Positions 29,936-59,278 of a stretch of 64,000 nucleotides of DNA are shown here, in pieces. Each line of letters begins with the position of its first letter. The stretch's first letter is position 1. Position numbers and translations under genes: made by a program. The notes below the pieces were generated by a model. That model was not told the DNA's origin and ran no database searches. It worked only from the letters and a program-made list of their open reading frames with translations. This DNA comes from Streptomyces sp. NBC_01317 (GTDB lineage: Bacteria; Actinomycetota; Actinomycetes; Streptomycetales; Streptomycetaceae), in contig NZ_CP108393.1 in assembly GCF_035961655.1 (NCBI RefSeq), positions 1,736,001-1,800,000 of the forward strand. The letters are read 5' to 3'.

Positions 29936-29984
29936 GTCTCCCGACCCCGAATCCTCGGCGGGTGCCGCCGTACTGCCTTGGGGA

Positions 29985-30011: not shown

Positions 30012-30022
30012 CACGTCCGCTC

Positions 30023-31471
30023 CTACTGGTGCTTGTAGTGCTTGATCGAGGTGTCCTTGGCGGCTTCGTCGGCGAAGCCCTGGGCCTTCTTGACGGCCTC
30101 GGCCGGCGTGATGCGGCCGGCCATCAGCTCACCGAGGACACCGGTACCGATCTTCTCCTTCTGGAGAGCCACGTACCAGTCCTGGAGCCGCGGGTTGAGC
30201 ACGTTGTCACCCGCGAGCTTCAGCGCGTCGACACCCGCCTGCATCGCGGTCGAGAGGGTCAGCCCGTCCGTGCCGCCGTTGTACGCGCTCAGGGACTTCA
30301 CCTTCGTGGTGAAGTTCTTCGACGCGGCCTCGCTCAGCATGACGCGCAGCTGCTCCATGCCGCCCTGCGGGTTCGCGGCCTTCGCCGGTACGATGAACGG
30401 CTCACCGCCGCCCGCCCAGAGGGTGCCGAACGGCAGCTTGTCCGAGCTGTCCAGGCTGGACGGCGCGGCCACCTTCATCTGGAAGTCCTTCGGCGTGGTC
30501 TTCGCCGCCTCGTTCTCGACCCAGGAGCCGTTCGGGATGAACAGCGCCTTGCCCTCGGTCCACGCGGTCTGCGACTGGATGTGGTCGATACCGGGGGTGC
30601 CCTTGAGGATGTAGCCCTTCTTGAACAGCTCGTAGTACGCCTCGAAGGCGGCCTTCACGGCCGGGTTCTTCCAGGCGTTGGGCTCAAGGTTGTCGATCGC
30701 GTCGAGGACCTCGCGGCCACCGATCTTGCCGATGAACGGGTACAGCGAGAACGGGATGTAGTACGGGTACTTGCCCGCGTACGTCCAGCCCGCGATGCCC
30801 TTCTTCTTGGCCTTCGCACACAGGGCCAGCATCGCGTCCCAGTCCTGGGGGTACTCCGCGTCGAGGTTGTCGAGCGCGGTCTGCGAGTACCACACGCCGT
30901 ACACGGTGTAGGCGTAGTTCATGATCCAGACGGGCTCGCCGTCGTACTGGCCCATCTCGACGATGCCGGGCCGCAGGGTGTCGCGGACCTTCTTCGCCGG
31001 GTCGTCGATCGACGGCGCGTCGAGCAGCGGCGTGAGGTCGGTCAGCTGCTTCTTGCCGACCAGGACGCCCATGTCCATCTGCTCGGCGCCCGAGTTGTCG
31101 ATCAGGTCCGGCGGGGTACCGCCGTTGAACCGGGGCGACAGCTCGGACTGGATCTTCTGCGTCGAAGAGAACTTGACCTTCGCCTTCGGGTACGCCTTCT
31201 CGAACAGCGCGACCGAGTCCTTCGCGTACTCCGTACCGAACCCTCCGTCGAACAGGACGAAGTCGAGCGGCGCCGTCTCGTTCACCCCGAGCGGGTTCTG
31301 CGCGGACGTCTTGCCCTTCTCGACCTTCTTGTCGGTCCCGCTGTCGCTGCTCGCGCACGAAGCCAGGAAGCCCATCGTCGGGACCGTGATCAGGCCGATC
31401 GCTGCGGATCGCTTGATCACGTCTCGACGGCCGAGGCCCTCGTTGGTGTGCTGAGCGGAGGTGGATCCCAT
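30023..31471 (-). CDS. ngcE: N-acetylglucosamine/chitobiose-binding lipoprotein NgcE
   Basis: 482-residue solute-binding lipoprotein of the CUT1 class. The signal sequence has a twin-arginine-like GRRDVIKRSAA segment and the lipobox LASC with Cys39, so Tat export of a lipoprotein is possible. The mature domain starts near PLDFVLFDGGFGTEYAKD and runs to the C-terminus. Streptomyces NgcE proteins bind GlcNAc and/or N,N'-diacetylchitobiose from chitin. I chose 31471 as start (GAGGAC eight bases upstream); the frame is open to 32395, but that part overlaps the divergent GH92 gene. A DasR-like site lies in the promoter region. Confidence 0.87.
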   Translation of the reverse strand: MGSTSAQHTNEGLGRRDVIKRSAAIGLITVPTMGFLASCASSDSGTDKKVEKGKTSAQNPLGVNETAPLDFVLFDGGFGTEYAKDSVALFEKAYPKAKVKFSSTQKIQSELSPRFNGGTPPDLIDNSGAEQMDMGVLVGKKQLTDLTPLLDAPSIDDPAKKVRDTLRPGIVEMGQYDGEPVWIMNYAYTVYGVWYSQTALDNLDAEYPQDWDAMLALCAKAKKKGIAGWTYAGKYPYYIPFSLYPFIGKIGGREVLDAIDNLEPNAWKNPAVKAAFEAYYELFKKGYILKGTPGIDHIQSQTAWTEGKALFIPNGSWVENEAAKTTPKDFQMKVAAPSSLDSSDKLPFGTLWAGGGEPFIVPAKAANPQGGMEQLRVMLSEAASKNFTTKVKSLSAYNGGTDGLTLSTAMQAGVDALKLAGDNVLNPRLQDWYVALQKEKIGTGVLGELMAGRITPAEAVKKAQGFADEAAKDTSIKHYKHQ

Positions 31472-31705
31472 GCTCAAGTCCTCGCCTTCTCCAGGACTCA
31501 GGCGGTGTACCGGTCGCCCGTCCTTCTCGTTTGAGGCGAAGGGCCCCGCCACCGCGGTCAAATGAAGCTGGGTCGTGCAGGATTGTGGTGCTCGAATACA
31601 GAGAGAACGGCCTGAATGGCCGGTCGGATGCGGGCAGAGCCCTCCCCGCCGTCCCCGGTTCCCCCTGATCCGCCCGCCGCTTGAAACCTCGCGGGCCGGT
31701 GTTCG

Positions 31706-31721
31706 ACAGGTATAGTCCACT
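31706..31721. promoter_or_regulatory. DasR-responsive-element-like site
   Basis: ACAGGTATAGTCCACT matches the dre consensus ACTGGTCTAGACCAGT at 12 of 16 positions, and the mismatches are symmetric. It lies 235 bases upstream of the ngcE start. DasR is the GntR-type GlcNAc regulator of Streptomyces, so a site near GlcNAc/chitobiose uptake genes makes sense. Confidence 0.5.
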
Positions 31722-31932
31722 TGCCGCCGGGGGAGCAAGATCGAAAGCAGGTTTGGACGGCAGTCTTTCCCTAGTTGAGACCTCGCGGATATGTGAGCCG
31801 GTGGTGTCCTCATTCGACCACGACGGCCACTTCGAAATGACCGAGTCTCAGCCACTCCCGTCACCGACACACCTTCAACACCCTTGACACCACCCCGGAG
31901 TTGCCTCCTACTGGACCGCGCGCGTCTTGTTT

Positions 31933-31944
31933 GACAACGTTGTC
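31933..31944. promoter_or_regulatory. Palindrome GACAACGTTGTC upstream of the GH92 gene
   Basis: A perfect 12-bp palindrome, with flanking TT and CG, 29 bases before the GH92 start. Its size, centre (CG) and position are typical of LacI-family operators in actinobacteria, so it is a likely repressor site for the mannosidase gene. Confidence 0.5.
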
Positions 31945-31973
31945 CGGCTTGGTTTCGCAGGAGGAAACTCGGT

Positions 31974-34900
31974 ATGCAGGAGAGATCCGCCCCCCGGCGC
32001 AGACAATGGCATGCGGCCGCCCTCGTGGCGACCGCGTCGCTGCTCGTCATGACGGCCCCGTCCGCCGCCACCGCCCAGACCGCCCGGCCGACTCCGGCGG
32101 AAAGGGAATTCACCTCCTCTTTCGAGGCGGACGAATCCCAGCCGGACTGGCGCAACACCGTAGAAGTCGGACCTGGCGGCGAGAAACGGGCATCGGGGGT
32201 CGACGGCGGCTTCAACGCCGGTATCCCCGGAAATGTCACGGACCAGGTGACCGAGGTCCGCGCCAGCGCCGAGAACACGGGCGGGGGCGAGACCAAGGAG
32301 AACCTCGTCGACGTCACTCCCGGCACGAAGTGGCTCGCCTTTGAATCGACCGCCTGGCTCGAATTCGACCTGGCCGAGCCGGTCAAGGTCGTCACCTACG
32401 CCCTGACGTCGGCGAACGACCACGCGGAGCGCGATCCCGCGGACTGGACGCTCCAGGGTTCCGCCGACGGCAAGGAGTGGAAGGACCTCGACTCCCGCAC
32501 CGGCGAGACCTTCGCGGAACGCTTCCAGACCAAATCATATGAATTCGACAATCCCACCGCGTACGCGCACTACCGGCTGAACATCGCCGCGAACGACGGC
32601 GGTTCCGACATCACCCAGCTGGCGGACGTCCAGTTCTCCGACGGGGACACCACCCCGCCGGCGCCCGCCGAGATGCGTACCCAGGTCGACCGCGGCCCGT
32701 CCGGCTCCCCGACCGCCAAGTCCGGCGCCGGGTTCACCGGCACCCGGGCGCTGAAGTACGCCGGTACGCACCAGCCCGAGGGGCGCGCGTACTCGTACAA
32801 CAAGGTCTTCGACGTCAACACGGCGGTACGGCGCGACACCGCGCTCTCGTACCGGATCTACCCGTCCCTCCCGGAGACGGATCTCAACTACCCGGCGACC
32901 AACGTCGCGGTGGACCTGGCCTTCACGGACGGCACGTACCTCAGCGACCTCAAGGCGCTCGACTCGCACGGCGGGCTGCTGACCCCGCAGGGCCAGGGCG
33001 CCGCCAAGCGCCTGTACGTCAACCAGTGGAACCAGGTCGACGCCCGGATCGGCTCGGTCGCCGCCGGCAAGACCGTGGACCGCGTCCTGGTGGCGTACGA
33101 CGCCCCCAAGGGCCCCGGGAAGTTCCAGGGCTGGATCGACGACATCACCCTGGCGCCCAAGGCGCCGGAGAAGCGGCTCGCGCACCTGTCGGACTACGCG
33201 TCCACGGTCCGCGGGACCAACTCCAGCGGGTCGTTCTCGCGCGGCAACACCTTCCCGGCGACCGCCGTGCCCAACGGCTTCAACTTCTGGACGCCGGTGA
33301 CCAACGCCGGTTCGGACAGCTGGCTGTACGAATACGCCCGCGCGAACAACGCCGACAACCTGCCCACGCTCCAGGCGTTCAGCGCCAGCCACGAGCCGAG
33401 CCCGTGGATGGGCGACCGGCAGACCTTCCAGCTGATGCCGTCCGTGGCGGCCGGCGTCCCGGACCCGGACCGCGCCGAGCGGGCGCTGCCCTTCCGGCAC
33501 GAGAACGAGACCGCGAAGCCGCACTACTACGGCGTCACGTTCGAGAACGGCCTGAAGGCCGAGATGACCCCGACCGACCACGCGGCGATGATGCGCTTCA
33601 CCTATCCCGGTGACGACGCCAGCATCGTGTTCGACAACATCTCGAACGCGGGTGGGCTGACCCTCGATCCGGCGACCGACTCCTTCACCGGCTTCTCGGA
33701 CGTCAAGAGCGGTCTGTCGACCGGCGCCACCCGGCTTTTCGTATACGGCGTCTTCGACGCACCCGTCACGGCGAGCGGCAAGCTCACCGGCGGCGGGCGT
33801 GACGACGTCACCGGCTACCTGCGCTTCGACGCGGGAGCGGACCGTACCGTCGGACTGCGCCTCGCGACATCGCTGATCAGCGTCGACCAGGCGAAGAAGA
33901 ACCTCGCCGACGAGATCCCCGCCGGCACCCGCTTCGAGAAGGTCGAGAGCGGCGCACAGAGGGCGTGGGACTCCCTGCTGGGCCGGATCGAGGTGGAGGG
34001 CGCGGACCACGACCAGCTGACGTCCCTGTACTCCAGCCTCTACCGGCTCTACCTCTATCCGAACTCCGGCTTCGAGAACACCGGCACGAAGTCCCGGCCG
34101 AAGCAGCAGTACGCCAGCCCCTTCTCGCCGCAGACCGGGCCCGACACGCCGACGCAGACCGGCGCGAAGATCGTCGACGGCGAGGTGTACGTCAACAACG
34201 GCTTCTGGGACACGTACCGGACGACCTGGCCCGCGTACTCCTTCCTCACCCCGAAGAAGGCCGGGAAGCTCGTCGACGGGTTCGTGCAGCAGTACAAGGA
34301 CGGTGGCTGGATCTCGCGCTGGTCCTCGCCCGGGTACGCCGACCTGATGACCGGCACCAGCTCGGACGTGGCCTTCGCCGACGCGTACGTCAAGGGCGTC
34401 GACTTCGACGCGGAGACGGCGTACGAGGCGGCGCTCAAGAACGCGACCGTCGCGCCCCCCATGTCGGGCGTGGGCCGCAAGGGCATGGAGACGTCGCCGT
34501 TCCTCGGCTACGCCTCCACGGAGACCCATGAGGGCCTCTCCTGGTCGCTGGAGGGCTACCTCAACGACTACGGCCTGGCGGAGATGGGCCAGGCGCTCTA
34601 CAAGAAGACGAAGAAGCCGCGCTACAAGGAGGAGTCCGCGTACTTCCTCAACCGCGCCCAGAACTACGTCTCGCTCTTCGACACCCAGGCCGGCTTCTTC
34701 CAGGGCCGCAACCTCAAGGGCGACTGGCGGGTGCCGTCGGCCAGCTACGACCCGCGGATCTGGGGGTACGACTACACCGAGACGAACGGCTGGGGTTACG
34801 CCTTCACCGCGCCGCAGGACAGCCGCGGTCTGGCCAACCTGTACGGCGGCCGCGCCGGGCTCGGCGAGAAGCTCGACACGTACTTCTCGACGCCGGAGAC

Positions 34901-37080: not shown

Positions 37081-39888
<2,808 letters not shown>

Positions 39889-39951: not shown

Positions 39952-39969
39952 TATCTCGATGTCGAGATA
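39952..39969. promoter_or_regulatory. Perfect palindrome TATCTCGA-TG-TCGAGATA
   Basis: Eight-base perfect arms around TG, about 160 bases upstream of acnA. Such arms are typical of MarR- or TetR-type operators. No regulator gene is adjacent, and the gene on the other side ends here, so acnA is the only candidate target. Confidence 0.5.
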
Positions 39970-46694: not shown

Positions 46695-49600
46695 TCACGC
46701 GTCGCCGGGTTCCGGTCTGTTGAGGAGTCGGACCGGGCCCAGCAGGCCGGTGACGCGTTGGCCGGGGAAGACGAAGTGGGTGGGGCTGGTGGCGTCCAGG
46801 TGGGGGGCCAGGGTGCCGTAGACCGTGATCTCGATCGTGTGGGGGCCGGGGGCGGTCAGGTCCGGCACGTCGAACTCGTACGGGGAGCAGATCCGTACAC
46901 CCGCCGGCGTGCCGTCGATCCGTACCTCGGCCGTGCCCCGGACCCGTCCGAGGTCGAGGATCATCCGTCCCGTCGTCGCGCTGTCGGCGGGCAGGGTCAC
47001 CTCTCGGGTGTAGCGCACCCCGCCGCTGTACTCGGCGAGGCCCCGCGTCTCCCAGTCGCCGGTACGGATCAGGCCTGGGCCGACCACGCAGCGTACGGGG
47101 CCGGCCAGCGCGGCGCCGCCCCGGTGGCCCGGGTGGGTTTCCAGGCGCAGAGCGAGGGTCCTGGGGCCGGATGATGGGGCGGGGGGAAATTGCTGGGTCA
47201 GGTCGACGGTCAGGGTGCGTACGCCGTCTGCGGCGGGTTCCCCTTCTGCCGCTGGGCACTCCCGGCCGTCGACAAAAGCCCTTGTCCCAGTGGTGTGCAC
47301 GTCTACGGTCAACTTCATTGCGGCTGACGGGAGTTCGCACCACAGCCACTCCACCGCCGCCCGCTCGCCCGGGACCGCGAACCGGAGGGGGACGACCGTG
47401 CCGTCGTCGGCCTCCGGGTCCAGCCAGGCCGCGCCGGGCAGGGGGTGCGGGCGGCGGCGCAGGCACAGTGCGGCCGGGTCGCCCGACTGCTCACGCCGCA
47501 CCACCACCGGGACGCGCGCACCCGCCGCACGCTCGGACCACCAACTGGCGTCGCTGTGCAGGCCGGTGATCCGGCCGTCACCGTGGTCGAGGATCGCGTC
47601 CACCAGTACGGGGGAAGCGGCAGCGGTGGATTCCACCACGATGGTGTTGTCGCCGACGCGTAGGGTCGGGGCGATGTCGTGCCGCCGCACCCTCGGGACG
47701 GTATGGGCCGTGTACGGGTCGAATCCGCCCTGTCGGCCCACCACTTGGCCGTTGACGCGCAGGACGCAGGAGCCGTGGGAGGCGATCTGGATCGTCGCCC
47801 GGGTGGGAACGGCGGTGAGGGTGATGGTGGTTCCCACCCCGTTCCGGTCCGTGTCCGCGCCGATCCACTCGGGGCGGCGGTAGCGGCTCGGATCGCGGAT
47901 CAGCGCGATGTGCGCCCGGAGGTCGGTTTCTTGATCGGGCGTCAGCGTGAGTTCCAGGAGGTGTGGGCCCGGCTGTACGCGAACCCGTCCCACGGCGAGG
48001 TGGCCCTCGTCGTCCAGAGCGACCGTCCGGCCGTCCAGGCGGGCGGACTTGGCCGCCGCTGCTCCCACCGCCAGGTGGCCGTCGAAGGCGCTGTCCAGGC
48101 GGAGTTCGGCCTCGACACGGACCGTGGTGCCCGCCGCCGTCGGTCCGAGGTGCAGGAACTCCTCCGGGACATGGCCCTTGGGGCCGAGCTCAGCACGGTG
48201 GATCGGGTCCTTGTGGATGCCCAGGGTGTCGGACCAGACCAGCGGTGTACGGTCGCCGTCCGCGCCGACCAGGACGGCACGGGGCCCGAAGGTGGCGTGT
48301 GCGGTCGCCTCCGCCCCGCTGTCCGCGTCCTCACGCCGCGACCGGGCCCATCCGTCCCGTACGCCGTCCTCGCCCGGCCCTTCGACGCGGTGGCGGAAGG
48401 TGCGGTACGTCGTGACGTGAGGGGGAGAAGGGGTGGTGGCCGGGCGGGCGAAGTCGCCCCAGGTGTTGTCGAGGGTCGGGACGAGCGTCATGTGCCACGT
48501 CGCGTCGGGCGGGATCTCCACCGACATGGCGGCGTGGTCCGCCTCGTCGGCCAACCCCCGGGGCGGGCCGGCCGTCCCGGCGGTCGTCGCCGGACCCGCC
48601 GGGAAGACGAGCAGCGCCGCCGGTCCCGTATCAAAGGGCACTTCGACCTCCACACACCGGACGTCGTCCTCAACCGCCCGGACCGGCAGGGTGCGGGGCG
48701 GGCCGCCGAACGGGTCGAGCAGGATGGCCGGGCCCGCCACGTCCCGTACCCGCACCCGGGCCGTGCGGGCATAGCGGGCCGGGTCGAAGTCGTACCGGGC
48801 GTCGAGCCAGCCCAGAGCCGCCCCGCGCTCGTCGGGCGCGGCGACGGCCGCCTGTGTCGCGCGGGGCGCCCCGGCGGTCAGGAACACCACGGTGGCCCCG
48901 TCCACGCGCCGCCCGAGCACGGGGACGGTGGCCCGTACGGCGGGTACGAAGTCCTCGGGCCCGGCCGGTACGGGCTGTTCCGCCTGTTCCCGCGGTTCAC
49001 GGTGTTCGGTGAACGTCGAGGGCAACTCCGGCAGCAGGCCCGTGAGTTCGGTGCGCAGATCGTCCGTCGCCGGCAGGAACGTCGCCCGGCCGTCCTTGAA
49101 GCACGCCCGCATCTCCTCCAGCGCCGCCGCTCCCTCCGGGCCGAGGATCAGCTCCGGGACGGCCCCCAGCGCGATCAACCGCCCTCCCGCCGTGGCGAAT
49201 TCGATCAGCCGGCGTGCTGTCTCCTCCTCCAGGACCGTGCACGCGGGCAGGACCACCGCCGCATATGCCTCGTCCGCCATGTGGAGGCGGGCCACCGTGG
49301 TGGCGGGGACCGGCCGCCGGACCTGGGCGCCCGCCAGCGAGGCGTCGTCGATGACGTCCGCGTCCAGGCCGAGCCGGTCCATGAGGCCGGGGCGGGTCCT
49401 GAACCAGGACATGTCGCCGACCAGTTCGAGGTACGTCGACTGCGCGCGTACCGCTTCCGCCGAGACCCCGTCCAGCGCGGAACCGGCCTGGGCGGTGGTC
49501 GTCGGCAGCAGGATCGCCACGTCGCAGAGATGGCTGCCGAGGCTCAGGATCGCGCACAGCCGGGTCACGGCGTCGGCGAAGACGCGGTGGTGGTGCCAGT

Positions 49601-50921
49601 AGGGCTGACGCCAGTCGGTGCCGGGAGGCGCCCACTCCCACCAGCCGCCCTTGGTCGTGTAGTAGACGGCGTGCGGGTTGTAGAGGGTCGCGCCCGCGCG
49701 GAGCCAGGGCAGGAGCCAGTCGTACGTCTCCTCCAGCGTCCCGCCCCAGCCGGTGGAGTGGAAGGCCTCGATCCAGGTGCGCGCTCTGCCGTAGAGGTGG
49801 GCGAGGGACGAGTGGATACGGGCGTCGCCGTGGTGGTCGGAGCCGGGGGCGGAGAACCAGCGGTGGGTACGGGCGTAGTCGGCGTACAACTCGACGCCGG
49901 CGAGCGGGTGTCCGGCGCGGGCGGGGTCCTGCTGGTCGCAGCCGACGAGCAGGCCGTGGCGCTCGTGCCAGGCGGCGAGGGGCCGGAAGAAGGCCTCCTC
50001 CGCGAGTTCGGCGCGGGTGAGGTGGTAGTCGCGGCGGGTACGCAGGACGCCGGGGTCCGAGGTGCCGCCGCCCTCGTCGTCGTACAGCACGTCCAGGTGG
50101 GTGGTCAGGTCGTAGCCGCGCCGCCGCAGGAACGCGTCCGCGAAGTCGGCGGACCAGGTGGGCAGGGCCGGGAGTTCGTCCTGGAACGAGCCGACCACGA
50201 CCGTGCCCAGCCGCTCGCCCAGGCGTCGTTCGAAGGCGCCGTGCACCGCGTCCAGGAGCACGGCGCACGCGTCCGCGCCGAGGTAGTCGAATCCCTGCGA
50301 GGCGTGGTGATGGACCGTCAGGAGCCAGCGGCCGGGGCCGTCGGGGGCCCGCACGACCACCCCGTCGCCGGATGCGGGGCCGGAGCCGAGGACGGGCAGA
50401 GTGATCGGCGGGCCCACGGCCCGGTCCTCCTCGTCGACGGGTCGCGCGGAAGCCGCGAGCGGTTCTCCCCGTGGCGGGAGGCGCAGCTCTCCCCCGCCGT
50501 CGACCACGGCCCGCGCGCGGGCGAGGCGGCGGCCGGCGAACGCGGGCCGTTCGTCCACGAGACGGGCCTGGAGATCGGCCCCGGAGAAGCCCAGTTGGTC
50601 GTAGAACCAGAGGCTGACCCCGAGCGCGCGGGCGTCGTCGCAGACCCCTTCGAGCAGGGTCCACCAGGCGTCGGAGAGGAACGGCGGGTCGTCGGCGTCG
50701 GAGCCGAACAGTGGTCCTGACGGGGCCAGGTTGAGCAGGACGAGCTGGAACACCCCGCCCTCCGCGAACCGTTCGAGCTGCGCCCGCAGCCGCGCCCGGT
50801 CGAGCGGTTCGCCGCTCCACCACCAGATGGCGGTGGGCGAGAAGGCGCGCGGCGGGTCGGCGAGGATCTCCGCGACCCGCGCCGGGAGCGGGTCGGCCGC
50901 CCCCTCAGCCCTTGAGGCCAC
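46695..50921 (-). CDS. GH106-like alpha-L-rhamnosidase, cytoplasmic
   Basis: 1408 residues. The N-terminal segment AIWWWSGEPLDRARLRAQLE, then RFAEGGVFQLVLL, and the FLSDAWWTLLEGVCDDARAL plus LWFYDQLGFSGADLQ region match the GH106 barrel start (prolines aside), where a W-W-sugar site and a YDE/YDQ strand are conserved. The C-terminal 450 residues form beta-rich galactose-binding-like domains ending GLLGPVRLLNRPEPGDA. There is no signal peptide. The GTG start at 50921 lies inside the end of the permease gene (17-base overlap) with AAGGGG upstream. It is the last gene of the rhamnoside operon. Rhamnosidase activity is inferred from family likeness plus the GH78 partner. Confidence 0.72.
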   Translation of the reverse strand: MASRAEGAADPLPARVAEILADPPRAFSPTAIWWWSGEPLDRARLRAQLERFAEGGVFQLVLLNLAPSGPLFGSDADDPPFLSDAWWTLLEGVCDDARALGVSLWFYDQLGFSGADLQARLVDERPAFAGRRLARARAVVDGGGELRLPPRGEPLAASARPVDEEDRAVGPPITLPVLGSGPASGDGVVVRAPDGPGRWLLTVHHHASQGFDYLGADACAVLLDAVHGAFERRLGERLGTVVVGSFQDELPALPTWSADFADAFLRRRGYDLTTHLDVLYDDEGGGTSDPGVLRTRRDYHLTRAELAEEAFFRPLAAWHERHGLLVGCDQQDPARAGHPLAGVELYADYARTHRWFSAPGSDHHGDARIHSSLAHLYGRARTWIEAFHSTGWGGTLEETYDWLLPWLRAGATLYNPHAVYYTTKGGWWEWAPPGTDWRQPYWHHHRVFADAVTRLCAILSLGSHLCDVAILLPTTTAQAGSALDGVSAEAVRAQSTYLELVGDMSWFRTRPGLMDRLGLDADVIDDASLAGAQVRRPVPATTVARLHMADEAYAAVVLPACTVLEEETARRLIEFATAGGRLIALGAVPELILGPEGAAALEEMRACFKDGRATFLPATDDLRTELTGLLPELPSTFTEHREPREQAEQPVPAGPEDFVPAVRATVPVLGRRVDGATVVFLTAGAPRATQAAVAAPDERGAALGWLDARYDFDPARYARTARVRVRDVAGPAILLDPFGGPPRTLPVRAVEDDVRCVEVEVPFDTGPAALLVFPAGPATTAGTAGPPRGLADEADHAAMSVEIPPDATWHMTLVPTLDNTWGDFARPATTPSPPHVTTYRTFRHRVEGPGEDGVRDGWARSRREDADSGAEATAHATFGPRAVLVGADGDRTPLVWSDTLGIHKDPIHRAELGPKGHVPEEFLHLGPTAAGTTVRVEAELRLDSAFDGHLAVGAAAAKSARLDGRTVALDDEGHLAVGRVRVQPGPHLLELTLTPDQETDLRAHIALIRDPSRYRRPEWIGADTDRNGVGTTITLTAVPTRATIQIASHGSCVLRVNGQVVGRQGGFDPYTAHTVPRVRRHDIAPTLRVGDNTIVVESTAAASPVLVDAILDHGDGRITGLHSDASWWSERAAGARVPVVVRREQSGDPAALCLRRRPHPLPGAAWLDPEADDGTVVPLRFAVPGERAAVEWLWCELPSAAMKLTVDVHTTGTRAFVDGRECPAAEGEPAADGVRTLTVDLTQQFPPAPSSGPRTLALRLETHPGHRGGAALAGPVRCVVGPGLIRTGDWETRGLAEYSGGVRYTREVTLPADSATTGRMILDLGRVRGTAEVRIDGTPAGVRICSPYEFDVPDLTAPGPHTIEITVYGTLAPHLDATSPTHFVFPGQRVTGLLGPVRLLNRPEPGDA

Positions 50922-51783
50922 CCGCGAACCCCTTGATCACAAAGCGCTGGAGGACGAGGAAGACCAGCAGGATCGGCAGCGCCGCCAGGACGAGGCCGGC
51001 GAAGACGAGCCCATAGTCGGAGACGTACTGGCCCACGAAGGAGAAGACACCCACCGGCACGGTCTCCTTCCCCGAGCCGCCCAGGTAGAGCAGCGGGGTG
51101 AAGAAGTCGTTCCAGACGAAGACCGCGTTCAGGATGATCACGGTCCCGGTGATGGGCCGCAGCAGCGGGAAGACGATCCGGGTGAACGCCTGCCGGTGAT
51201 CGCAGCCGTCGATGAGCGCCGCCTGCGCGTAGTCCGCGGGCAGCGCGCGGATGAACCCGGTGTAGAGGAAGATCGTGAACGGCAGCTGGATGCCGGTGTA
51301 GAAGAGGACCATGCCGTGGTACGTCCCCAGCCAGCCCAGGTTGTCGACCAGCTTGTACAGCGGGATCATCCCGAGCTGGAAGGGCAGGACGATCCCCAGC
51401 AGGAACAGGACGTACAGCCCGTAGCCGAGCCCCTTCGCCGTCCGGGCGAGGTAGTAGGCGCCCGTGGAGCCGAGGACGACGAGCAACAGCAGGCTGAACC
51501 CGGTGATGACCGCGCTGTTCACCAGGGCGGAGGCGAGGGACGCGGACGTCCAGGCGTCGCCGAAGTTGCCCAGGGTGGGTGGGGCGGGCAGGGACAGCGG
51601 CGAATCGGCGATCTGCTGGGGATCCTTGAGGGCCAGGGTCAGCAGCGCGTACACCGGGAAGAGGAAGACGACCGCGGCGGCGGCCATGCCCAGTTCGAGG
51701 GCGTAACTCCCGTATCGGGGACGGCGTTTGCGCTTGTCCTCCGCCCGTCGTTCGGGCTTTCCCGCGAGCGTGGTGGCGCTCAC
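50905..51783 (-). CDS. Carbohydrate ABC transporter permease (MalG-type)
   Basis: 292 residues, six helices after a short charged start (KPERRAEDKRKRRPRYGS). The EAA loop is DYAQAALIDGCDHRQAFTRI, then VFPLLRP (about 190-215). The GTG start at 51783 overlaps the stop of the MalF-type gene (GTGA), and its end overlaps the GH106 gene. Forms a heterodimeric channel with the upstream permease. No ATPase is encoded in the operon. Confidence 0.88.
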   Translation of the reverse strand: MSATTLAGKPERRAEDKRKRRPRYGSYALELGMAAAAVVFLFPVYALLTLALKDPQQIADSPLSLPAPPTLGNFGDAWTSASLASALVNSAVITGFSLLLLVVLGSTGAYYLARTAKGLGYGLYVLFLLGIVLPFQLGMIPLYKLVDNLGWLGTYHGMVLFYTGIQLPFTIFLYTGFIRALPADYAQAALIDGCDHRQAFTRIVFPLLRPITGTVIILNAVFVWNDFFTPLLYLGGSGKETVPVGVFSFVGQYVSDYGLVFAGLVLAALPILLVFLVLQRFVIKGFAGGLKG

Positions 51784-52769
51784 GCGGTCACCTCCCGGGC
51801 GCGTAGATAACGGAGTTGGACCAGGGAGACGGCGGCGACGAACAGCGCGAGGACCAGGGCGACGGCGGTGCTGTAGCCGAACTTCCCGAACACGAAGGCT
51901 TCCTTGTACAGGACGGTCGACAGGGTCTCGCTCGACGTGCCGGGGCCGCCGTTGGTGGCGGCGTACACCTGGTCGAAGAGTTTCAGTCCGCCGATGGTCG
52001 ACAGCATCAGGTTGATGGTCAGCGCCGGGGCGAGCAGCGGCCACGTGACGTACCGGAAGCGCTGCCAGGTCCCCGCGCCGTCGATCCGGGCCGCTTCGTG
52101 GAGTTCCACGGGCACACCCTGGAGCCCGGCGAGGAAGACGACCATCGAGTAGCCCGCGTACTGCCAGATCACCATCGCGGCGACGGACCACAGCGCGAGG
52201 GACGGGTTGCCGAGCCAGTCCTGGCGCAGGCCGCCGAGGCCGATCGCGCCGAGGACCCCGTTGAGTCCCGCGCCGTTGTCCGGGTTGTAGACGTACTTCC
52301 AGAGGAACGCGACCATCACGGGGCTGACGACGGCGGGGGCGAAGAAGATGACCCGCAGCAGCGACCGGGAGTGGATGTTCGTGTTCACACCGAGCGCGAG
52401 GAGCAGGCCGACGGCGTTCTGGACCACCACCACCGCGACGGTGAGCATCAGTGTGTTGCCGACGGACTCCAGCGCCCGGTCGTCGTCCAGCAGGGTGCGG
52501 AAGTTGTCCAGGCCGATGAAGGAGAAGCCGCCGATGCCCGACCAGTCGGTGAAGGCGTACACGACCCCCGCGAGGCTGGGGTAGAGGACCACGACGGCGT
52601 ACACGACGAGGGCCGGGACGACAAAGGCCCACGGGGGTACGGTCTGGTCGCGGCGGACCCGTTTGCGGCGGACCGGGTCCGGGGTGCCGGGCCGGGCGGT
52701 GGTGCCGGCGGCGGCCGGGTCCTGCGGTCTGTTCCCGTCCGAAGTGGTCGTCCCGGGAAGGGAGTTCAC
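51780..52769 (-). CDS. Carbohydrate ABC transporter permease (MalF-type)
   Basis: 329 residues with a 40-residue Pro/Thr/Arg-rich cytoplasmic start, then VPPWAFVVPALVVYAVVVLY and five more helices. The EAA loop is ELHEAARIDGAGTWQRFRYV, then TWPLLAP (about 230-256). GTG start at 52769 overlaps the binding-protein stop (GTGA). CUT1 family, which usually takes up di- and oligosaccharides. Confidence 0.88.
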   Translation of the reverse strand: MNSLPGTTTSDGNRPQDPAAAGTTARPGTPDPVRRKRVRRDQTVPPWAFVVPALVVYAVVVLYPSLAGVVYAFTDWSGIGGFSFIGLDNFRTLLDDDRALESVGNTLMLTVAVVVVQNAVGLLLALGVNTNIHSRSLLRVIFFAPAVVSPVMVAFLWKYVYNPDNGAGLNGVLGAIGLGGLRQDWLGNPSLALWSVAAMVIWQYAGYSMVVFLAGLQGVPVELHEAARIDGAGTWQRFRYVTWPLLAPALTINLMLSTIGGLKLFDQVYAATNGGPGTSSETLSTVLYKEAFVFGKFGYSTAVALVLALFVAAVSLVQLRYLRAREVTA

Positions 52770-54064
52770 GAGTCCATCCTGTAGGCCTTGTCCATCTGGC
52801 CGAGCGCTCCTTTGACGTCGGTCTCCCCCGCGAGCAGGTCCTGTACGGCCGCGAAGTGGGCGGGCTGTACCTCGGCGTTGGGCCAGCGCTGGTCCATGAA
52901 GGGGACGGCGCGCTCGGCGTCGACGATGGGCAGGAAGTCGGCCAGTATGGGGTCGATCCTCGTGGTGGCGTCCCGGGTGAGGGGGATCGCCGAGACGGCG
53001 GCGGCCCAGCGGTTGAGGTTCGCCTGCTGTCCGAGGAACGCGATCAACGCCTTCGCCTTCTCCTTGTTGTCGGCCCGCGCGGCGACGCCGAGGCCGACGA
53101 CGATCCCGGCGGGGATCCAGGCCTTCGCCGGGTCCTCGCCGCCGGGGAAGGGGAACATGCCGAGATCCTGGGGCGTCCGGGTGGCCTCGCGGTACATGGC
53201 CAGCACGGCGGAGACCTGGACGGCCATGGCGGCCTTCCCGGCGGCGACCATCGCGGTCTGCTGCTCGAAGGTGGTGCCGTTGGGGTTGTCGTTGAAGAAG
53301 CCGCGGCGCTGGAGTTCCTGGTACTTGCCCATCGCGTCGGCCCAGCCCGAGTCCGCGAAGGTCGTCCGCCCGGCGGCCATGTCGTCGTCGAAGCGCGGGT
53401 TGTCGGCGTAGACGGCGTCGGGCACCAGCGCGTAGGTGATCAGCTGGGTGACCCAGGGGGTCTGGGCGCCGAGTGCCAGGGGGACGATGCCTTTCGCCTT
53501 CAACTTGCCGCAGACGGTGAGCAGTTCGCTCCAGGTACGGGGCGGGGAGACCCCGGCCTTCGCGAAGGCCTTCTTGTTGTAGACGGCGCCGATGACGCTG
53601 CTGCCCGCCGAGTACAGGTAGGTCTTGCCGTCGTCGCGGTACGCGGCGTCGAAGCTCTCCGGGATGCCCTTCGTCCACGCCTGGTCGGAGAGGTCGGTGA
53701 GGAGTCCGCCCTTCGCCAGCTCGACCATCGACATCGCGCTGCCGCTGCCGGGGAACAGGACGTGGACGTCGGGGGCGTTGCCGCCGGCGAGTTGGGTCCG
53801 TACGACGGTCTGCACCTGGTCGGTGGGGGCGTAGGAGGTGGAGAACTCCGTGTCCGGGTGGCTCTTGAGGTAGACGGGGAGGAGTTCGTCGAGGGGCTTC
53901 TGCTGGTCGGTGACCCCGACGATCCGTACGCGTCCGGAGCCGGAGCCCGAGCAGGCCGCGAGGCCGGGGAGTGCGGTGGCGGCGGCGGCCCCGCCGCCGA
54001 TGCGGAGGAATCCCCGGCGGCTGACCGTACGCCGGGCGGGACGGGCGCGGGAGCCGGTGCTCAT
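52766..54064 (-). CDS. Carbohydrate ABC transporter substrate-binding lipoprotein (Tat-type)
   Basis: 432 residues. The signal sequence contains SRRGFLRIG, a good twin-arginine motif (Arg16-Arg17), and the lipobox LAAC with Cys38, so it should be a Tat-exported lipoprotein. The mature part is a CUT1 binding protein (VRIVGVTDQQKPLDELLPVY onward). ATG at 54064 has GAGGAGG ten bases upstream and overlaps the GH78 stop. Lying between two rhamnosidase genes, it probably binds rhamnose-containing glycosides. Confidence 0.88.
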   Translation of the reverse strand: MSTGSRARPARRTVSRRGFLRIGGGAAAATALPGLAACSGSGSGRVRIVGVTDQQKPLDELLPVYLKSHPDTEFSTSYAPTDQVQTVVRTQLAGGNAPDVHVLFPGSGSAMSMVELAKGGLLTDLSDQAWTKGIPESFDAAYRDDGKTYLYSAGSSVIGAVYNKKAFAKAGVSPPRTWSELLTVCGKLKAKGIVPLALGAQTPWVTQLITYALVPDAVYADNPRFDDDMAAGRTTFADSGWADAMGKYQELQRRGFFNDNPNGTTFEQQTAMVAAGKAAMAVQVSAVLAMYREATRTPQDLGMFPFPGGEDPAKAWIPAGIVVGLGVAARADNKEKAKALIAFLGQQANLNRWAAAVSAIPLTRDATTRIDPILADFLPIVDAERAVPFMDQRWPNAEVQPAHFAAVQDLLAGETDVKGALGQMDKAYRMDS

Positions 54065-56988
54065 GGTGTGTCCTCCTCGTGGGTGCCGGCGAACGAGGCC
54101 GCCGCCGGGCTCGGTCGGCGCCGGTCCTGGCGGAGCGCGTGCGGGAGCCGGGCCGTCGGGGACGTGTCGGCGTACACACTGGTGAAGCGGTACGCGCCGG
54201 AGCCGACCCGGTACAGGACGTGGTCGCGGCCGGTGCTGAGCGGTGTGACGTGCGGGGCGTCCTCGACGCGCGTGTCCGACTCGCGGACCGACGCAGGGTC
54301 GGTGGTGGGGACGCGGACGTCGGCGGTGGCGCCCGGCGGCACCTCGACCCGCAGCTCGAAGCGGTCGCCGTCCCGGGTCCAGCGGATCTCGATCGCGCCG
54401 CGTACCGATTCGTGCCGGGCGCCGGCGTGGGTGAGCCCGCCGGGGTGGGGCCGGACGCTCAGGTGGCGGTAGCCGGTGGAGTCCGGGCGCTGGCCGAGTC
54501 CGGCGACCCCGCGGTAGAGCCATTCGCCGACCGAGCCGAGCGCGTAGTGGTTGAAGGAGTTCATGGACGCCGCCTGGAAGCCGCCCTCGGGGGTCCAGCC
54601 GTCCCAGCGCTCCCACACGGTGGTGGCGCCGTGGCGCAGGGGGAAGAGCCAGGAGGGGTGGTCCGTACGGCGCAGCAGCGCGTGTACGAGGTCGGCCCTG
54701 CCGTGCGCGTCCAGGACGGGGGCGGCGAGGGCGACGCCGAGGAAGCCGGTGGTGAGGGCGGGTCCGGCCTGTTCGACCAGTTCGGCGAGGCGGCGGGCGG
54801 CGGGGGGCGCGAGGTCGGCGGGGAGGAGTGCGAAGGCGAGTGCGACGAGGTAGCCGGTCTGGGTGTCGCCTTCGATCCGTACGGAGGTCACGTCGGCGGT
54901 GACGTCGGAGGTCTCGTCGGTGGTGACCTCGGCGGTCACCTCAGCGGTGACTCCGACCGTGACGAACTGTTCGGCGAACACGGCACTGATGGCGTCGGCC
55001 AGTTCCCCGTACCGCCGCGCGGTCTCCCGCTCCCCCAGGACGTCCGCGGCCAGGGAGGTGATCCTGGCACTGTGGGCGAAGTACGCGGTGGCGATGACGT
55101 CGCGCGGGGTGGGGGTGCCGGGCGCGAGCCAGTCGGCGAAGTGCGGTCCCACCCTCTTCCGCCATACTAGGTCCGGGTTGTGACGGTGGATCAGGTCGAC
55201 CCAGGCGCGCATGCCGTCGAGGGCGCGGGCGAGGAAGCGCGGGTCGTCGTACGTACGGTAGAGGTGCCACGGGATGATCACCCCGGCGTCGCCCCACCCG
55301 GGCGCCCCCTCGTCGTCCACGCCCGCGAGGCGGGGGGCGACGTTGGTGAATCCGCCGTCGGGGGTGCGCGCGTCGTCCACGTCCCGCAGCCACTTGGTGA
55401 AGAACGCGGCGACGTCTGCGTTGAGGGCGGCGGTGGGGAGGAACACCTGGGCGTCGGCGAGCCAGCCGAGGCGTTCGTCGCGCTGCGGGCAGTCCGTCGG
55501 GACGCTGACGAAGTTGGACCGCTGCCCCCAGGAGACACAGTCGTGCAGGCGGCGGATGCCGGGGTCCGAGCAGTCGAACGCGCCGGCCCACGGGGTGTCG
55601 CTGTGCAGGACGACGGCGACGACGTCCGACGGGTCGACGTCGGGGAGTCCGCTGATCTCGGCGTAGCGGAAGCCGTGGTAGGTGAAGCGGGGTTCGAACA
55701 TGACGTTCTCGCGCCCGTCGCCGACGAGAACGTCGGTCGCGGCGGCCGTCCTCAGGTTGGCGGTGTACAACTGCTCGGCCCCGTCGAGGACTTCGGCGTG
55801 CCGGACGACCACCCGGCCTCCCGCCGGGAGGGCGGGGACGCGGAGCCGTACGCGCCCGGCGAGGTTCTGGCCGAAGTCGACCAGGTGCGTCTCGGGCGCG
55901 ACGCGGGTGATCGTACGGGGCAGCAAAGTGGTGATGGCCCGGACCGGTTCGTCGGGCGAGGCCACCAGCAGCCGGTGGCCGGTGTCCGTGACGACGGCGG
56001 GCGACCAGCCGGAGTCGTCGAACCCGGGCAGGTCCCAGCCGTCGGCCGCGTACCGCAGGTCGTGGCACTCGCCCATGAGCAGGTCGGCGTGGCGGGTCGC
56101 GCCGGTGGCGGTGCGCCATGCGGGGTCGGTGACGACCTTGGTCGTACGGCCGTCGGCGGCGGTGAGGTGGAGTTCGGCGATCAGCTGCGGGAACGTGCCG
56201 TAGTGGGCGCCGGCCCTGCGCGGCTCGAAGCCGACGAACCCGCTCCACCAGCCGTCGGCGAGGGTCGCGGCGAGGACGTTCTCGCCGGCCCGGACGAGGC
56301 CGGTGACGTCGTACGCCTGGTACTGGACGCGGTGGTGGTAGTCGGTCCAGCCGGGGGCGAGTTCGGCGTCGCCGACGCGGGCGCCGTTGATCCTGACCTC
56401 GTACAGGCCCCGCGCGCTGACGTAGAGGCGGGCGCGGGCCAGGCGCTCCGCGGAGAAGGCCCGGCGCAGGGTGGGGCAGGGGGCGAGTCCGTGGTGGTCG
56501 AGGGCGACGACGCCTTCGGTGGGGGCGTCCACGACGTCCACGGGCCGGGGGTCGTGGGCGATCCAGGAGGCGCTCCACGCGTCGGTGTCCATCATCGCGG
56601 TCTCGAACCACGACGTGGCCTCGGCGGGGCGCAGGGGCGAGGGTCCCGCGGGCCAGACGGTGACACGCCAGTGGTAGCGCGTACGGGCCGTCAGGGCGGG
56701 TCCGCCGTAGACCACTCCGACGGCGTCCGGGTCCGCGACCCGCCCGGTGTCCCAGAGCGGCCGTCCCCCGCCGGCCAGGTCCCGGGGATCCTCGGCGACC
56801 CTGACCCGGTAGGCGACGGGGTCGTCGCCGCGCCGGTCGGACGCCAGCCGCCAGGAGAGGAGGGGCGCGGGCTCGTCCGTACCGAGGGGGGTGGTGCGGT
56901 GGTCGCACCGCAGCGCGTAGGGCCGCAGGCCGGACGGTGGGGCGGAGGGGCTCGGGGTCCGTGCGTCCGCTGCCGGGGAACCGGACAC
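54061..56988 (-). CDS. GH78 alpha-L-rhamnosidase, cytoplasmic
   Basis: 975 residues, no signal peptide. Domain order follows GH78: an N-terminal fibronectin-like part (LRCDHRTTPLGTDEPAPLLS at about 25), the Bac_rhamnosid_N jelly roll (LYVSARGLYEVRINGARVGD), the conserved domain with VDFGQNLAGRVRLRV, the (alpha/alpha)6 barrel and a C-terminal beta domain. The general acid is the Glu in DCPQRDERLGW (about 498-508), and the second conserved Glu is in TTVWERWDGWTPEGG. The GTG at 56988 follows GGAAGG by eight bases. An unusual Val-Thr-Ala-Glu-rich stretch sits at about 677-701. It leads the operon with the transporter and the GH106 gene. Confidence 0.9.
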   Translation of the reverse strand: MSGSPAADARTPSPSAPPSGLRPYALRCDHRTTPLGTDEPAPLLSWRLASDRRGDDPVAYRVRVAEDPRDLAGGGRPLWDTGRVADPDAVGVVYGGPALTARTRYHWRVTVWPAGPSPLRPAEATSWFETAMMDTDAWSASWIAHDPRPVDVVDAPTEGVVALDHHGLAPCPTLRRAFSAERLARARLYVSARGLYEVRINGARVGDAELAPGWTDYHHRVQYQAYDVTGLVRAGENVLAATLADGWWSGFVGFEPRRAGAHYGTFPQLIAELHLTAADGRTTKVVTDPAWRTATGATRHADLLMGECHDLRYAADGWDLPGFDDSGWSPAVVTDTGHRLLVASPDEPVRAITTLLPRTITRVAPETHLVDFGQNLAGRVRLRVPALPAGGRVVVRHAEVLDGAEQLYTANLRTAAATDVLVGDGRENVMFEPRFTYHGFRYAEISGLPDVDPSDVVAVVLHSDTPWAGAFDCSDPGIRRLHDCVSWGQRSNFVSVPTDCPQRDERLGWLADAQVFLPTAALNADVAAFFTKWLRDVDDARTPDGGFTNVAPRLAGVDDEGAPGWGDAGVIIPWHLYRTYDDPRFLARALDGMRAWVDLIHRHNPDLVWRKRVGPHFADWLAPGTPTPRDVIATAYFAHSARITSLAADVLGERETARRYGELADAISAVFAEQFVTVGVTAEVTAEVTTDETSDVTADVTSVRIEGDTQTGYLVALAFALLPADLAPPAARRLAELVEQAGPALTTGFLGVALAAPVLDAHGRADLVHALLRRTDHPSWLFPLRHGATTVWERWDGWTPEGGFQAASMNSFNHYALGSVGEWLYRGVAGLGQRPDSTGYRHLSVRPHPGGLTHAGARHESVRGAIEIRWTRDGDRFELRVEVPPGATADVRVPTTDPASVRESDTRVEDAPHVTPLSTGRDHVLYRVGSGAYRFTSVYADTSPTARLPHALRQDRRRPSPAAASFAGTHEEDTP

Positions 56989-57351
56989 GAGCACGTCCTT
57001 CCTTGGCGCCGCGACAGCGCACACGACCACGTCGAATGTGAAATCTGACGTGAATCTAACGTGAATTCCGTGGCGTGGAGACTATGAGCCGCCCACAGGG
57101 GTGTCAAGAGTGCCGACCACGTGTCAACTCGGCGGCACATAAAGGGCCCTAACGCCTCATATGGACACACGCGCCAGGGCGTGGCGCGCCGCCTCACGGG
57201 ATATGCGGTGTGATTACCACATGATAGAGCGTTAAAATGATGGACGACAGGTGACGCGAAGTCACCCTCCTTGCGGCCGGAACGCATTGGGTGGCATGGA
57301 TCGGCGCGGACGGGACACCCGTACGCCAGACAGAGACAGAGGAGGCGCACG
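56989..57351. other. 363-bp divergent region, rhamnoside operon / DUF4236 gene
   Basis: No gene is supported. The side next to 56989 carries three spaced ACGTGAAT-type repeats (listed separately). The middle part (57120-57240) is less GC-rich and holds AT-rich stretches such as TAGAGCGTTAAAATG that may be the promoter of the plus-strand gene. Confidence 0.55.
57036..57066. promoter_or_regulatory. Direct repeats ATGTGAAA / ACGTGAAT / ACGTGAAT
   Basis: Three copies start at 57036, 57048 and 57059, spaced 12 and 11 bases, 48-78 bases upstream of the GH78 start. Helical phasing on one DNA face suggests binding of several regulator subunits. The regulator is unknown and is not encoded next to the operon. 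Confidence 0.5.
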
Positions 57352-57552: not shown

Positions 57553-57674
57553 CACGCGGCGCGGGCGCGGAGACACACCCGTACGGCGGACCCCGGTGGC
57601 GGGGCGGGGCCGGGGCGGCGACCATCGGACATGCACCTGGTGCATCACTCCAACGGCCCACCCTGGCCCCTTTC

Positions 57675-57694
57675 CTATCTCACAGCTGATATAG
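57675..57694. promoter_or_regulatory. Promoter and inverted repeat of murA2
   Basis: CTATnTCA and TGAnATAG form an inverted repeat with a 4-base centre, overlapping a -10-like TATAGC (57690-57695). The ATG is at 57704, eight bases after the hexamer, and no ribosome-binding site is between them, so the mRNA is probably leaderless. A second palindrome, ATGCACC-T-GGTGCAT, is at 57631-57645. Confidence 0.55.
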
Positions 57695-57703
57695 CCTGCC
57701 CCT

Positions 57704-59233
57704 ATGGCAGACGACTACCTCGCACGCATCGGCAAGCTCATCCGCGTCGCCCGGCAGCACAGGGGCTGGACCCAGACCCAGCTCGCCGAGGCACTGGCCA
57801 CCAGCCAGAGCGCCGTGAACCGCATCGAGCGTGGCAACCAGAACATCAGCCTTGAGATGATCGCGCGCATCGGTGAGGCGCTCGACAGCGAGATCGTGTC
57901 GCTCGGGTACGCCGGACCGATGCATCTGCGGGTCGTCGGCGGGCGCCGGCTGTCCGGCGCCATCGACGTCAAGACGAGCAAGAACGCCTGTGTGGCGCTG
58001 CTCTGCGGTTCGCTGCTCAACAAGGGCCGTACGGTCCTGCGCCGCGTGGCCAGGATCGAGGAGGTCTTCCGGCTGCTGGAGGTGCTGAACTCCATCGGGG
58101 TGCGCACCCGCTGGATCAACGACGGCGTGGACCTGGAGATCGTGCCCGCCGCCGAGCTGGACATGGAGGCGATCGACGCCGACGCGGCCCGCCGTACCCG
58201 CTCCATCATCATGTTCCTCGGCCCGCTGCTGCACCGCCTGGACACCTTCCGGCTGCCGTACGCCGGCGGCTGCGACCTCGGTACGCGCACGATCGAGCCG
58301 CACATGATCGCGCTGCGCCGCTTCGGCCTCGACATCGCCGCGACCGAGGGGCTCTACCACGCGCAGGTGGACCGTACGGTGGCGCCGGACCGCCCGATCG
58401 TCCTGACCGAGCGCGGTGACACGGTGACCGAGAACGCGCTGCTGGCCGCCGCCCGCCACGACGGCACGACCGTCATCCGCAACGCCTCCTCCAACTACAT
58501 GGTCCAGGACCTGTGCTTCTTCCTGGAGGCGCTGGGGGTACGGGTCGACGGCATCGGTACGACGACCCTCACCGTGCACGGCACGCCGAACATCGACGTG
58601 GACGTCGACTACTCCCCCTCCGAGGACCCGGTCGAGGCGATGAGCCTGATCGCGGCGGCGGTGGTCACCGAGTCCCGGCTGACGATCCGCCGGGTGCCGA
58701 TCGAGTTCCTGGAGATCGAGCTCGCGGTGCTGGAGGAGATGGGGCTCGACCACGACCGTACGGCGGAGTACGCGGCCGACAACGGCCGTACCCGCCTGGT
58801 CGACCTGACCGTACGGCCCTCCAAGCTGGAGGCGCCGATCGACAAGATCCACCCGATGCCGTTCCCCGGCCTGAACATCGACAACGTGCCGTTCTTCGCG
58901 GCCATCGCGGCGGTGGCCCAGGGCAAGACGCTGATCCACGACTGGGTGTACGACAACCGCGCGATCTACCTCACGGACCTCAACCGCCTGGGCGGCCGGC
59001 TCCAACTCCTCGACCCGCACCGGGTCCTGGTCGAGGGCCCCACCCGCTGGCGCGCCGCCGAGATGATGTGCCCGCCGGCACTGCGGCCCGCGGTGGTGGT
59101 CCTGCTGGCGATGATGGCGGCGGAGGGGACGTCCGTCCTGCGCAACGTCTACGTCATCAACCGGGGTTACGAGGACCTTGCGGAGCGCCTCAACTCGGTG
59201 GGCGCGCAGATCGAGATCTTCCGCGACATCTGA
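57704..59233 (+). CDS. murA2: MurA paralogue fused to an XRE helix-turn-helix
   Basis: 509 residues in two parts. Residues 1-68 form an XRE/Cro helix-turn-helix (LIRVARQHRGWTQTQLAEAL, then ATSQSAVNRIERG). Residues about 72-509 are a full EPSP-synthase-fold UDP-GlcNAc 1-carboxyvinyltransferase, the enzyme that adds enolpyruvate to UDP-GlcNAc at the start of peptidoglycan synthesis. The Lys-Asn of MurA (VKTSKNACVALL) and the catalytic Cys loop (AGGCDLGTRTIEPH, with Cys near residue 190) are present. The conserved Asp region reads PFPGLNIDNVPFFA where standard MurA has PTDxQ. S. coelicolor has a second murA of this type beside acnA (memory). Normal MurA is about 420-450 residues. The enzyme may be active, regulatory, or both. 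Confidence 0.88.
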   Translation: MADDYLARIGKLIRVARQHRGWTQTQLAEALATSQSAVNRIERGNQNISLEMIARIGEALDSEIVSLGYAGPMHLRVVGGRRLSGAIDVKTSKNACVALLCGSLLNKGRTVLRRVARIEEVFRLLEVLNSIGVRTRWINDGVDLEIVPAAELDMEAIDADAARRTRSIIMFLGPLLHRLDTFRLPYAGGCDLGTRTIEPHMIALRRFGLDIAATEGLYHAQVDRTVAPDRPIVLTERGDTVTENALLAAARHDGTTVIRNASSNYMVQDLCFFLEALGVRVDGIGTTTLTVHGTPNIDVDVDYSPSEDPVEAMSLIAAAVVTESRLTIRRVPIEFLEIELAVLEEMGLDHDRTAEYAADNGRTRLVDLTVRPSKLEAPIDKIHPMPFPGLNIDNVPFFAAIAAVAQGKTLIHDWVYDNRAIYLTDLNRLGGRLQLLDPHRVLVEGPTRWRAAEMMCPPALRPAVVVLLAMMAAEGTSVLRNVYVINRGYEDLAERLNSVGAQIEIFRDI

Positions 59234-59238: not shown

Positions 59239-59278
59239 GGGGTGTCGTGCCCCTTGGCAGCAAGGAGCACGACACCCC
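59239..59278 (+). terminator. Terminator of murA2
   Basis: Outer 12-bp stem GGGGTGTCGTGC and inner stem CCTTG/CAAGG with loop GCAG, separated by one unpaired base on each side. It starts five bases after the stop codon. Confidence 0.85.

Follow-up and report, generated by a model that had tools for sequence, protein, structure and literature searches.

The murA2 gene of Streptomyces and related actinomycetes encodes an XRE-MurA fusion and carries a putative operator on its own leaderless-type promoter

The window, meaning the whole 64,000-nucleotide stretch of Streptomyces DNA analyzed here, carries at 57704-59233 (forward strand) a gene for a 509-amino-acid fusion of an XRE helix-turn-helix (HTH) with MurA. 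Its ATG at 57704 is the earliest possible start downstream of the previous stop when the open reading frame (ORF) is read. We take this to be the Streptomyces MurA2 gene, the orthologue of SCO5998, on the strength of the neighboring acnA, which was found in the window. The available text of PMC12161575 names that neighbor, and the gene is called murA2 in S. coelicolor and S. venezuelae (SCO5998; sven5810/vnz_28735) in the available parts of PMC12161575, PMC4125116, and PMC11005364. A Pfam profile search placed HTH_3 at residues 13-64 (57740-57895, forward strand; 47.2 bits against a cut-off of 23), which assigns the domain to the XRE/HTH_3 family, and EPSP_synthase (PF00275) at residues 79-496 (140.3 bits); both scores lie above their cut-offs and bear out the XRE-MurA fusion of the original prediction. 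The MurA (enolpyruvyl transferase) domain as a whole spans residues 72-509 (57917-59230, forward strand) and belongs to the subfamily of model NF006873 (314 bits, cut-off 297). The murA equivalog model TIGR01072 gave 300.3 bits, below its cut-off of 392.7, so we regard the protein as a divergent MurA and not as an equivalog; the HipB-type (Y4mF) antitoxin model TIGR03070 also stayed below its cut-off (48.8 against 71.65 bits). We used an AlphaFold2 model built from an alignment (pLDDT 89.1) and discarded a single-sequence model (pLDDT 38.9). The recognition helix is modeled at residues 35-42, QSAVNRIE (57806-57829, forward strand), and the linker at residues 63-70 is of low confidence. Residues 70-509 of the model matched the MurA fold in a structure search; the matches shown cover the MurA part alone, with MurA and EPSP-synthase-type chains among them. 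Many relatives are titled "helix-turn-helix domain-containing protein" in their source records, so the fusion has already been annotated. Right after the stop codon, at 59239-59278, lies a 12-bp perfect inverted repeat lacking a T-run; it is probably a terminator and was not picked up by a terminator scan based on T-runs.

MurA2 is a spare copy of MurA, the enzyme with which cell-wall synthesis begins. Compared with E. coli MurA (UDP-GlcNAc enolpyruvyl transferase, EC 2.5.1.7), the fusion adds an N-terminal XRE domain and a putative operator of its own. In alignment, E. coli K22, N23, R91, C115, R120, D305, R371, and R397 were all retained in the window protein, including the Lys-Asn pair and the catalytic Cys (K22, N23, and C115) that had been recognized at first reading; NID in place of PTD had been read correctly as well, with Asp305 itself kept. 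These residues and R331 were invariant in 11 fusions from 7 family codes, a comparison that omitted the paralogue rows L001-L003 (wrong-frame ORFs), and in 31 aligned fusions. Here and below, G denotes a genome, L a locus, f a family code, and g a genus code. Differences from the E. coli enzyme were equally uniform, with K48E, K160E, R232P, and T304I found identically in 11/11 fusions and D369 lost in the same 11/11 (P or A by alignment). These changes, along with the TIGR01072 score below cut-off, would suit a MurA domain that has become a pure ligand-binding sensor and is no longer an enzyme, or that makes another enolpyruvyl product. We consider this unlikely because the retention of the catalytic residues across both sets of fusions would be unusual in a dead enzyme, and enzyme activity of MurA2 is predicted from those residues. 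The altered positions 48, 160, 232, 304, and 369 may signal changed kinetics, ligand, or fosfomycin response.

Further from murA2, the window encodes at 25176-32395 a xylF-like binding protein (below the equivalog cut-off), a ROK/NagC-like regulator, two sugar permeases, and NgcE (TIGR03851, 619.9 bits against a cut-off of 399.65). The original prediction had placed murA2 near the uptake genes ngcEFG; ngcE and two permeases are indeed in the window, but about 25 kb away, past acnA and a rhamnosidase block, and this proximity gives little support to a regulatory idea. The acnA gene lies at 37081-39852 on the minus strand. Between acnA and murA2, the block at 46695-57030 contains one strong and one weak rhamnosidase match and a sugar-binding protein. 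At 17/29 other same-genus loci the acnA start falls inside the flank of approximately 1.5 kb around murA2, which suggests that the rhamnosidase block was inserted in this species.

Immediately upstream of murA2, an inverted repeat, CTATCTCA-CAGC-TGATATAG, was found at 57675-57694. Its 18-bp core at 57676-57693, TATCTCA-CAGC-TGATATA, is a putative operator dyad by comparison with orthologues (consensus TATCTCA-N4-TGAGATA). The dyad fills the spacer between the -35 and -10 positions and overlaps the -10 box, and the repeat had rightly been seen to lie on the gene's own -10. That box had been given as TATAGC; it is better read as TAGCCT at 57692-57697 (forward strand), which conforms to TANNNT and ends 6 nt before the ATG. 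TANNNT was present in 119/119 same-genus promoters, with the start codon 6-7 nt after it, and in 265/301 distinct promoters overall. A Shine-Dalgarno-like 4-mer between -16 and -4 was found in 0/119 same-genus orthologues, the window gene included, in agreement with the earlier reading that a ribosome-binding site is absent. Given a -10 set some 6-7 nt ahead of the start codon and the lack of a Shine-Dalgarno sequence, the murA2 promoter is predicted to have the geometry of a leaderless transcript. In 46 Aeromicrobium-type (g26) promoters, TTG stands just 5' of the dyad where a -35 would be expected, which would put the dyad in the promoter spacer, a position typical of a repressor site.

Several regulators of murA2 have been published. 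The available parts of the respective papers describe a BldM-WhiI footprint on the S. venezuelae murA2 promoter (PMC4125116), a SigB-dependent promoter, SCO5998p, with the -10 GGGTAT (PMC8346170), and a predicted DmdR1 site (PMC12161575); according to the part of PMC11005364 at hand, murA2 overexpression did not mimic the effect of whiI on exploration. We took the BldM-WhiI motif TGnnCCGnnCGGGTGA, with 12 specified bases, from the available text of PMC4125116 and found a Group II site-like sequence at 57645-57660 on the minus strand, an imperfect match with 2 of 12 mismatches, roughly 50 bp ahead of the predicted start. Among same-genus upstream regions, 84/119 had the motif with 3 or fewer mismatches, 74 of these starting at -60 to -56, compared to 15/119 for the reversed motif and 15/119 for a shuffled one, as would be expected of a BldM-WhiI Group II target. 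A count of 60/229 at the same threshold was set aside, as it came from a mixed set that included other Streptomyces loci. A SigB-type promoter like that described for SCO5998 in the available text of PMC8346170 was located in 0/410 loci. Just upstream of the BldM-WhiI-like site, at 57631-57645, is a perfect 15-bp palindrome, ATGCACC-T-GGTGCAT (ATGCACCTGGTGCAT), which was not found in the 75 nt upstream of 29 other same-genus genes.

Given these regulators, the dyad could be the operator of a separate, dedicated factor, with the HTH of MurA2 vestigial or otherwise employed. The BldM-WhiI motif, however, differs from the dyad in sequence and sits further upstream, and a separate factor would leave unexplained both the near-single site per genome in three genome sets and the disappearance of the site where the HTH is lost or rewritten in cis, which are described below. 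We therefore judge a separate factor to be very unlikely.

The murA2 gene was present in 120/121 same-genus genomes, with identities of 84-97% when the window's own copy is excluded. The remaining genome, G050 (82% complete), gave a weak match alone (E 2.2e-33); in G028 the gene was in two pieces, and in G017 it began at residue 6 at a contig end. Class-wide, at E <= 1e-100, murA2 was found in 114/394 genomes and 25/137 genera, and a smaller class draw had it in 39/158 genomes. A draw from the phylum yielded 11/246, all 11 inside the class, and Dermatophilaceae-type genomes (f33) carried it in 112/119. Carriers include Arthrobacter, Pseudarthrobacter, Sinomonas, Nocardioides, Aeromicrobium, and Brachybacterium, as well as Janibacter, Intrasporangium, Actinopolymorpha, Allokutzneria, and Hamadaea. 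One record titled Sporosarcina beigongshangi (L166, NZ_JADHDY010000012.1) has an Arthrobacter-type murA2 and may be contaminated or misnamed. In G041, two murA2-like fragments on opposite strands (C224:286572-287081; 71% and 92% identity) precede the intact gene, possibly a broken duplicate.

Conservation of the repeat in orthologues, which the original prediction had named as a check, held both within and beyond the genus. The dyad was present with 2 or fewer of 14 mismatches in 119/120 same-genus promoters, at 10 nt from the ATG in 56 genomes and at 11 nt in 63; the sole miss (L382, in G017) is interrupted by Ns. In other genera, our script found it with 3 or fewer mismatches in 106/109 loci, and correction of the start of L290 recovered one more by hand, giving 107/109; the two misses were G197 and G653. 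These 109 loci represent 107 genomes, two of which were drawn twice, and cover 73/74 non-genus genomes of the class draw (partial G593 left out) and, overlapping with these, 46/47 carriers of a second set (partial G526 left out). All 12 family codes with murA2 in the class draw are represented among the dyad loci. Further f33 loci had the dyad in 27/29 (L419-L447; those lacking it were G861 and G835) and in 19/19 (L449-L467; one with 4 mismatches).

Both the helix and the promoter were readable at 354 loci, corresponding to 305 distinct sequences and to 301 distinct promoters whose helix was intact. The best site in these 301 promoters had 0, 1, 2, 3, 4, or 5 mismatches in 67, 155, 39, 18, 12, and 10 cases, respectively. 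Sites with 3 or fewer mismatches thus occurred in 279/301 promoters, compared to 1/300 control windows 100 positions upstream and 0/301 with the reversed pattern. The 22 promoters with only 4-5 mismatches were of Arthrobacter/Sinomonas type in 21 cases and of Dermatophilaceae type in one; 37/300 control windows also contained a site at that level, and on this comparison the site has drifted in these 22 promoters, with single cases indistinguishable from chance. Outside the dyad and TANNNT, the same-genus, f26, and g26 sets showed little information content. Flanks were conserved too in the f19 set, which consists of 19 closely related genomes.

A repeat with a 7-bp stem and a 4-nt loop so near the start codon could also fold in RNA, and some of its changes occur in both arms; it might then be a hairpin acting on translation or termination from a 5' untranslated region, with the promoter further upstream. 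The arms do not behave accordingly. Among 86 unique sites, the two arms failed to match in 39 at position 1, in 39 at position 3, and in 28 at position 4; wobble pairs at these three positions numbered 0, and an A.A or T.T mismatch is kept in many related genomes. In addition, the TANNNT -10 overlaps the right arm at fixed spacing, and the ribosome-binding site is absent throughout the 119 same-genus orthologues. We rejected the hairpin because the arms are so often mismatched without wobble pairing, and we give this reading almost no credence.

The dyad is close to unique in each genome. In the window genome, no site other than that at murA2 came within one mismatch of TATCTCA-N4-TGAGATA; the closest others, three sites, had two. 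The exact core ATCTCA-N4-TGAGAT was found in 112/121 same-genus genomes, 91 of them with a single copy and 21 with two, whereas a reversed-pattern control was found in 1/121. It was at murA2 in 111 of these genomes, and the single copy in G040 was elsewhere, so 90 genomes have the core at murA2 alone. There were 22 further exact sites, namely the 21 second copies and the one in G040. Eleven of them were inspected; 6 lay in coding sequence and 5 were intergenic by MarR-type genes, adjoining MarR-, MFS-, or nitroreductase-like ORFs (named by eye). None of these 11 resembles a secondary MurA2 target. In G072 and G053 (L102 and L104), an exact ATCTCACCGGTGAGAT lies within a ROK-regulator-like ORF (by eye) 5-12 kb from murA2, and these copies are probably chance occurrences in coding sequence. 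Likewise, TAACTCA-N4-TGAGATA was found in 18/22 f19 genomes, once in 17 of them and then at murA2 by coordinates, and TATCTCA-N4-TGAGATA in 54/81 f26 genomes, always once and in agreement with murA2 wherever its coordinates were at hand; the control was 0 in both families.

We also weighed a related palindrome at acnA, TATCTCG-N4-CGAGATA, as a possible second target of MurA2. It is conserved at 39952-39969 (for the most part TAGAGTTATCTCGACATCGAGATA), lies between 120 and 175 nt ahead of the aconitase start, and was found in 18/30 stretches, the other 12 lacking a recognized acnA start. Its center was identical in all 18 copies, and in S. coelicolor the aconitase is repressed by TamR, a MarR-family protein, according to the available text of PMC5487221. 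Taken together, these points make TamR the likelier binder, and the acnA palindrome is possibly a TamR site.

The site also follows the HTH through evolution. In four Arsenicicoccus-type genomes (G197, G653, G861, and G835), the recognition helix was rewritten, for example to MTGTDIEQIE in place of TSQSAVNRIE, and the dyad was absent; a TACGAT -10 at leaderless spacing was still readable in G653, G197, and G861. The genus name was deduced from P0122 and P0123, which share 92% and 90% identity with G653, and the losses count as one event on the tree. G878, which shares genus code g55 with this set and is 79% identical, kept both helix and dyad. In G821, where the match begins at query residue 59, the protein lacks the HTH and a search of 1.3 kb found no dyad (best, 6 mismatches); G241, with the same genus code, has both HTH and dyad. 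In Aeromicrobium Root495 (L188; L215 is the same protein, 100% identical), TTQSVV stands in the helix for TSQSAV and the site is TATCGCA-N4-TGCGATA, with the same change in both arms. A helix change to SQNVVS in L225 left the dyad unchanged.

Smaller changes in the helix were compared with arm position 3 of the site. SQG helices (10/10 loci) and SAVT/SAIG helices (3/3, one from f19) went with A at this position, while SAVA/SAVV/SAIA helices of Dermatophilaceae-type genomes went with T; the g330 pair G837 and G801 differ both in the helix (S/G) and in the site (T/A). A 2x2 table of helix against operator read 39/0/1/8 over 48 rows, with the SQG/T/G helix class defined after the operators had been seen, so that part of this covariation evidence is post hoc. 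The exception is L094, where an N helix accompanies the operator AACTCA/TGAGTT. When changes were placed on a tree of the MurA domain, built with the HTH left out, there were 7 in operator type and 6 in helix type. Well-supported branches supplied only 3 independent pairs (2 concordant, 0 opposite, and 1 without change), on which the sign test was not significant (p = 0.5). A code linking the X residue of SQSAVX to base 3 fails as a general rule, since the T3A arm change of f19 (AACTCA) accompanies helices H and N alike.

Because the site tracks the HTH through loss, rewriting, and both-arm changes, it is very probable that the HTH of MurA2 itself uses the palindrome as its operator. The proposal that the protein may bind its own promoter found strong support in the comparison, from the conserved position of the site in 12 family codes, from its near-single occurrence per genome, and from these parallel losses and changes. 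Our main reading, to which we assign a probability of roughly 0.85, is that MurA2 is a bifunctional enzyme-regulator whose XRE domain would bind the dyad on its own leaderless promoter and repress its own transcription; we infer both the binding itself and the sign of the regulation from the genome comparisons. The XRE domain would bind TATCTCA-N4-TGAGATA, probably as a dimer, and since the bound dyad would fill the promoter spacer and overlap the -10, autorepression is predicted. In Streptomyces, the BldM-WhiI activator site just upstream would provide developmental switch-on, with self-limitation to follow. Whether substrate binding alters DNA binding, and UDP-GlcNAc or PEP exerts control, is a guess, and the link to UDP-GlcNAc level and the sensor role in the original prediction are conjectural. 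MurA2 could be a precursor-responsive repressor across a large part of the Actinomycetes, in which binding of UDP-GlcNAc, either alone or together with PEP, would close the MurA domain and alter DNA binding; we put this forward tentatively and would sooner bet against it than for it.

Enzymes that repress their own genes are a familiar class. PutA, BirA, and NadR are autogenous enzyme-repressors ("trigger enzymes") with a DNA-binding domain, and their ligand control is proven. Like them, MurA2 joins an enzyme and a DNA-binding domain in one polypeptide, with own or pathway genes as targets, and it has a specific putative operator on its own promoter that is evolutionarily coupled to the fused HTH. 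Unlike them, it belongs to other folds and pathways, its ligand control is conjecture, and its target set looks like one gene. A palindromic operator on the own promoter is a habit of the XRE family, as described in the available text of PMC12565409. An HTH_3 domain with an own-promoter palindrome is therefore common among XRE-family autoregulators, whereas the effector part of MurA2 is a cell-wall enzyme. In the available portions of the Streptomyces literature, MurA2 figures as an enzyme and as a target of BldM-WhiI, SigB, or DmdR1, with no mention of its HTH or of self-regulation, and among the open-access matches listed there was no report of the MurA2 HTH binding its own promoter; PMC4255298 and PMC9239103, in their available parts, deal with subjects other than murA2. 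The gene, its HTH annotation, and its developmental control by BldM-WhiI are already known. Judging from its sequence, MurA2 would fall into this known general class of enzyme-repressors; its enzyme family, and its leaderless design with close to a single target, are features that we have not seen described there.

If the main reading is true, the supply of wall precursors in Streptomyces, Nocardioides, Arthrobacter, and their relatives would be under a control built into the enzyme itself. This may account for the retention of a second murA and for the way in which that gene is held in check once BldM-WhiI has switched it on in sporulation. With one protein, one 18-bp site, and natural variants in the form of both-arm changes and HTH losses, murA2 would also offer a simple test bed for the coupling of an enzyme to a promoter. 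If MurA2 were in addition precursor-responsive, a single protein would read the wall-precursor pool, make the next precursor, and set its own amount.
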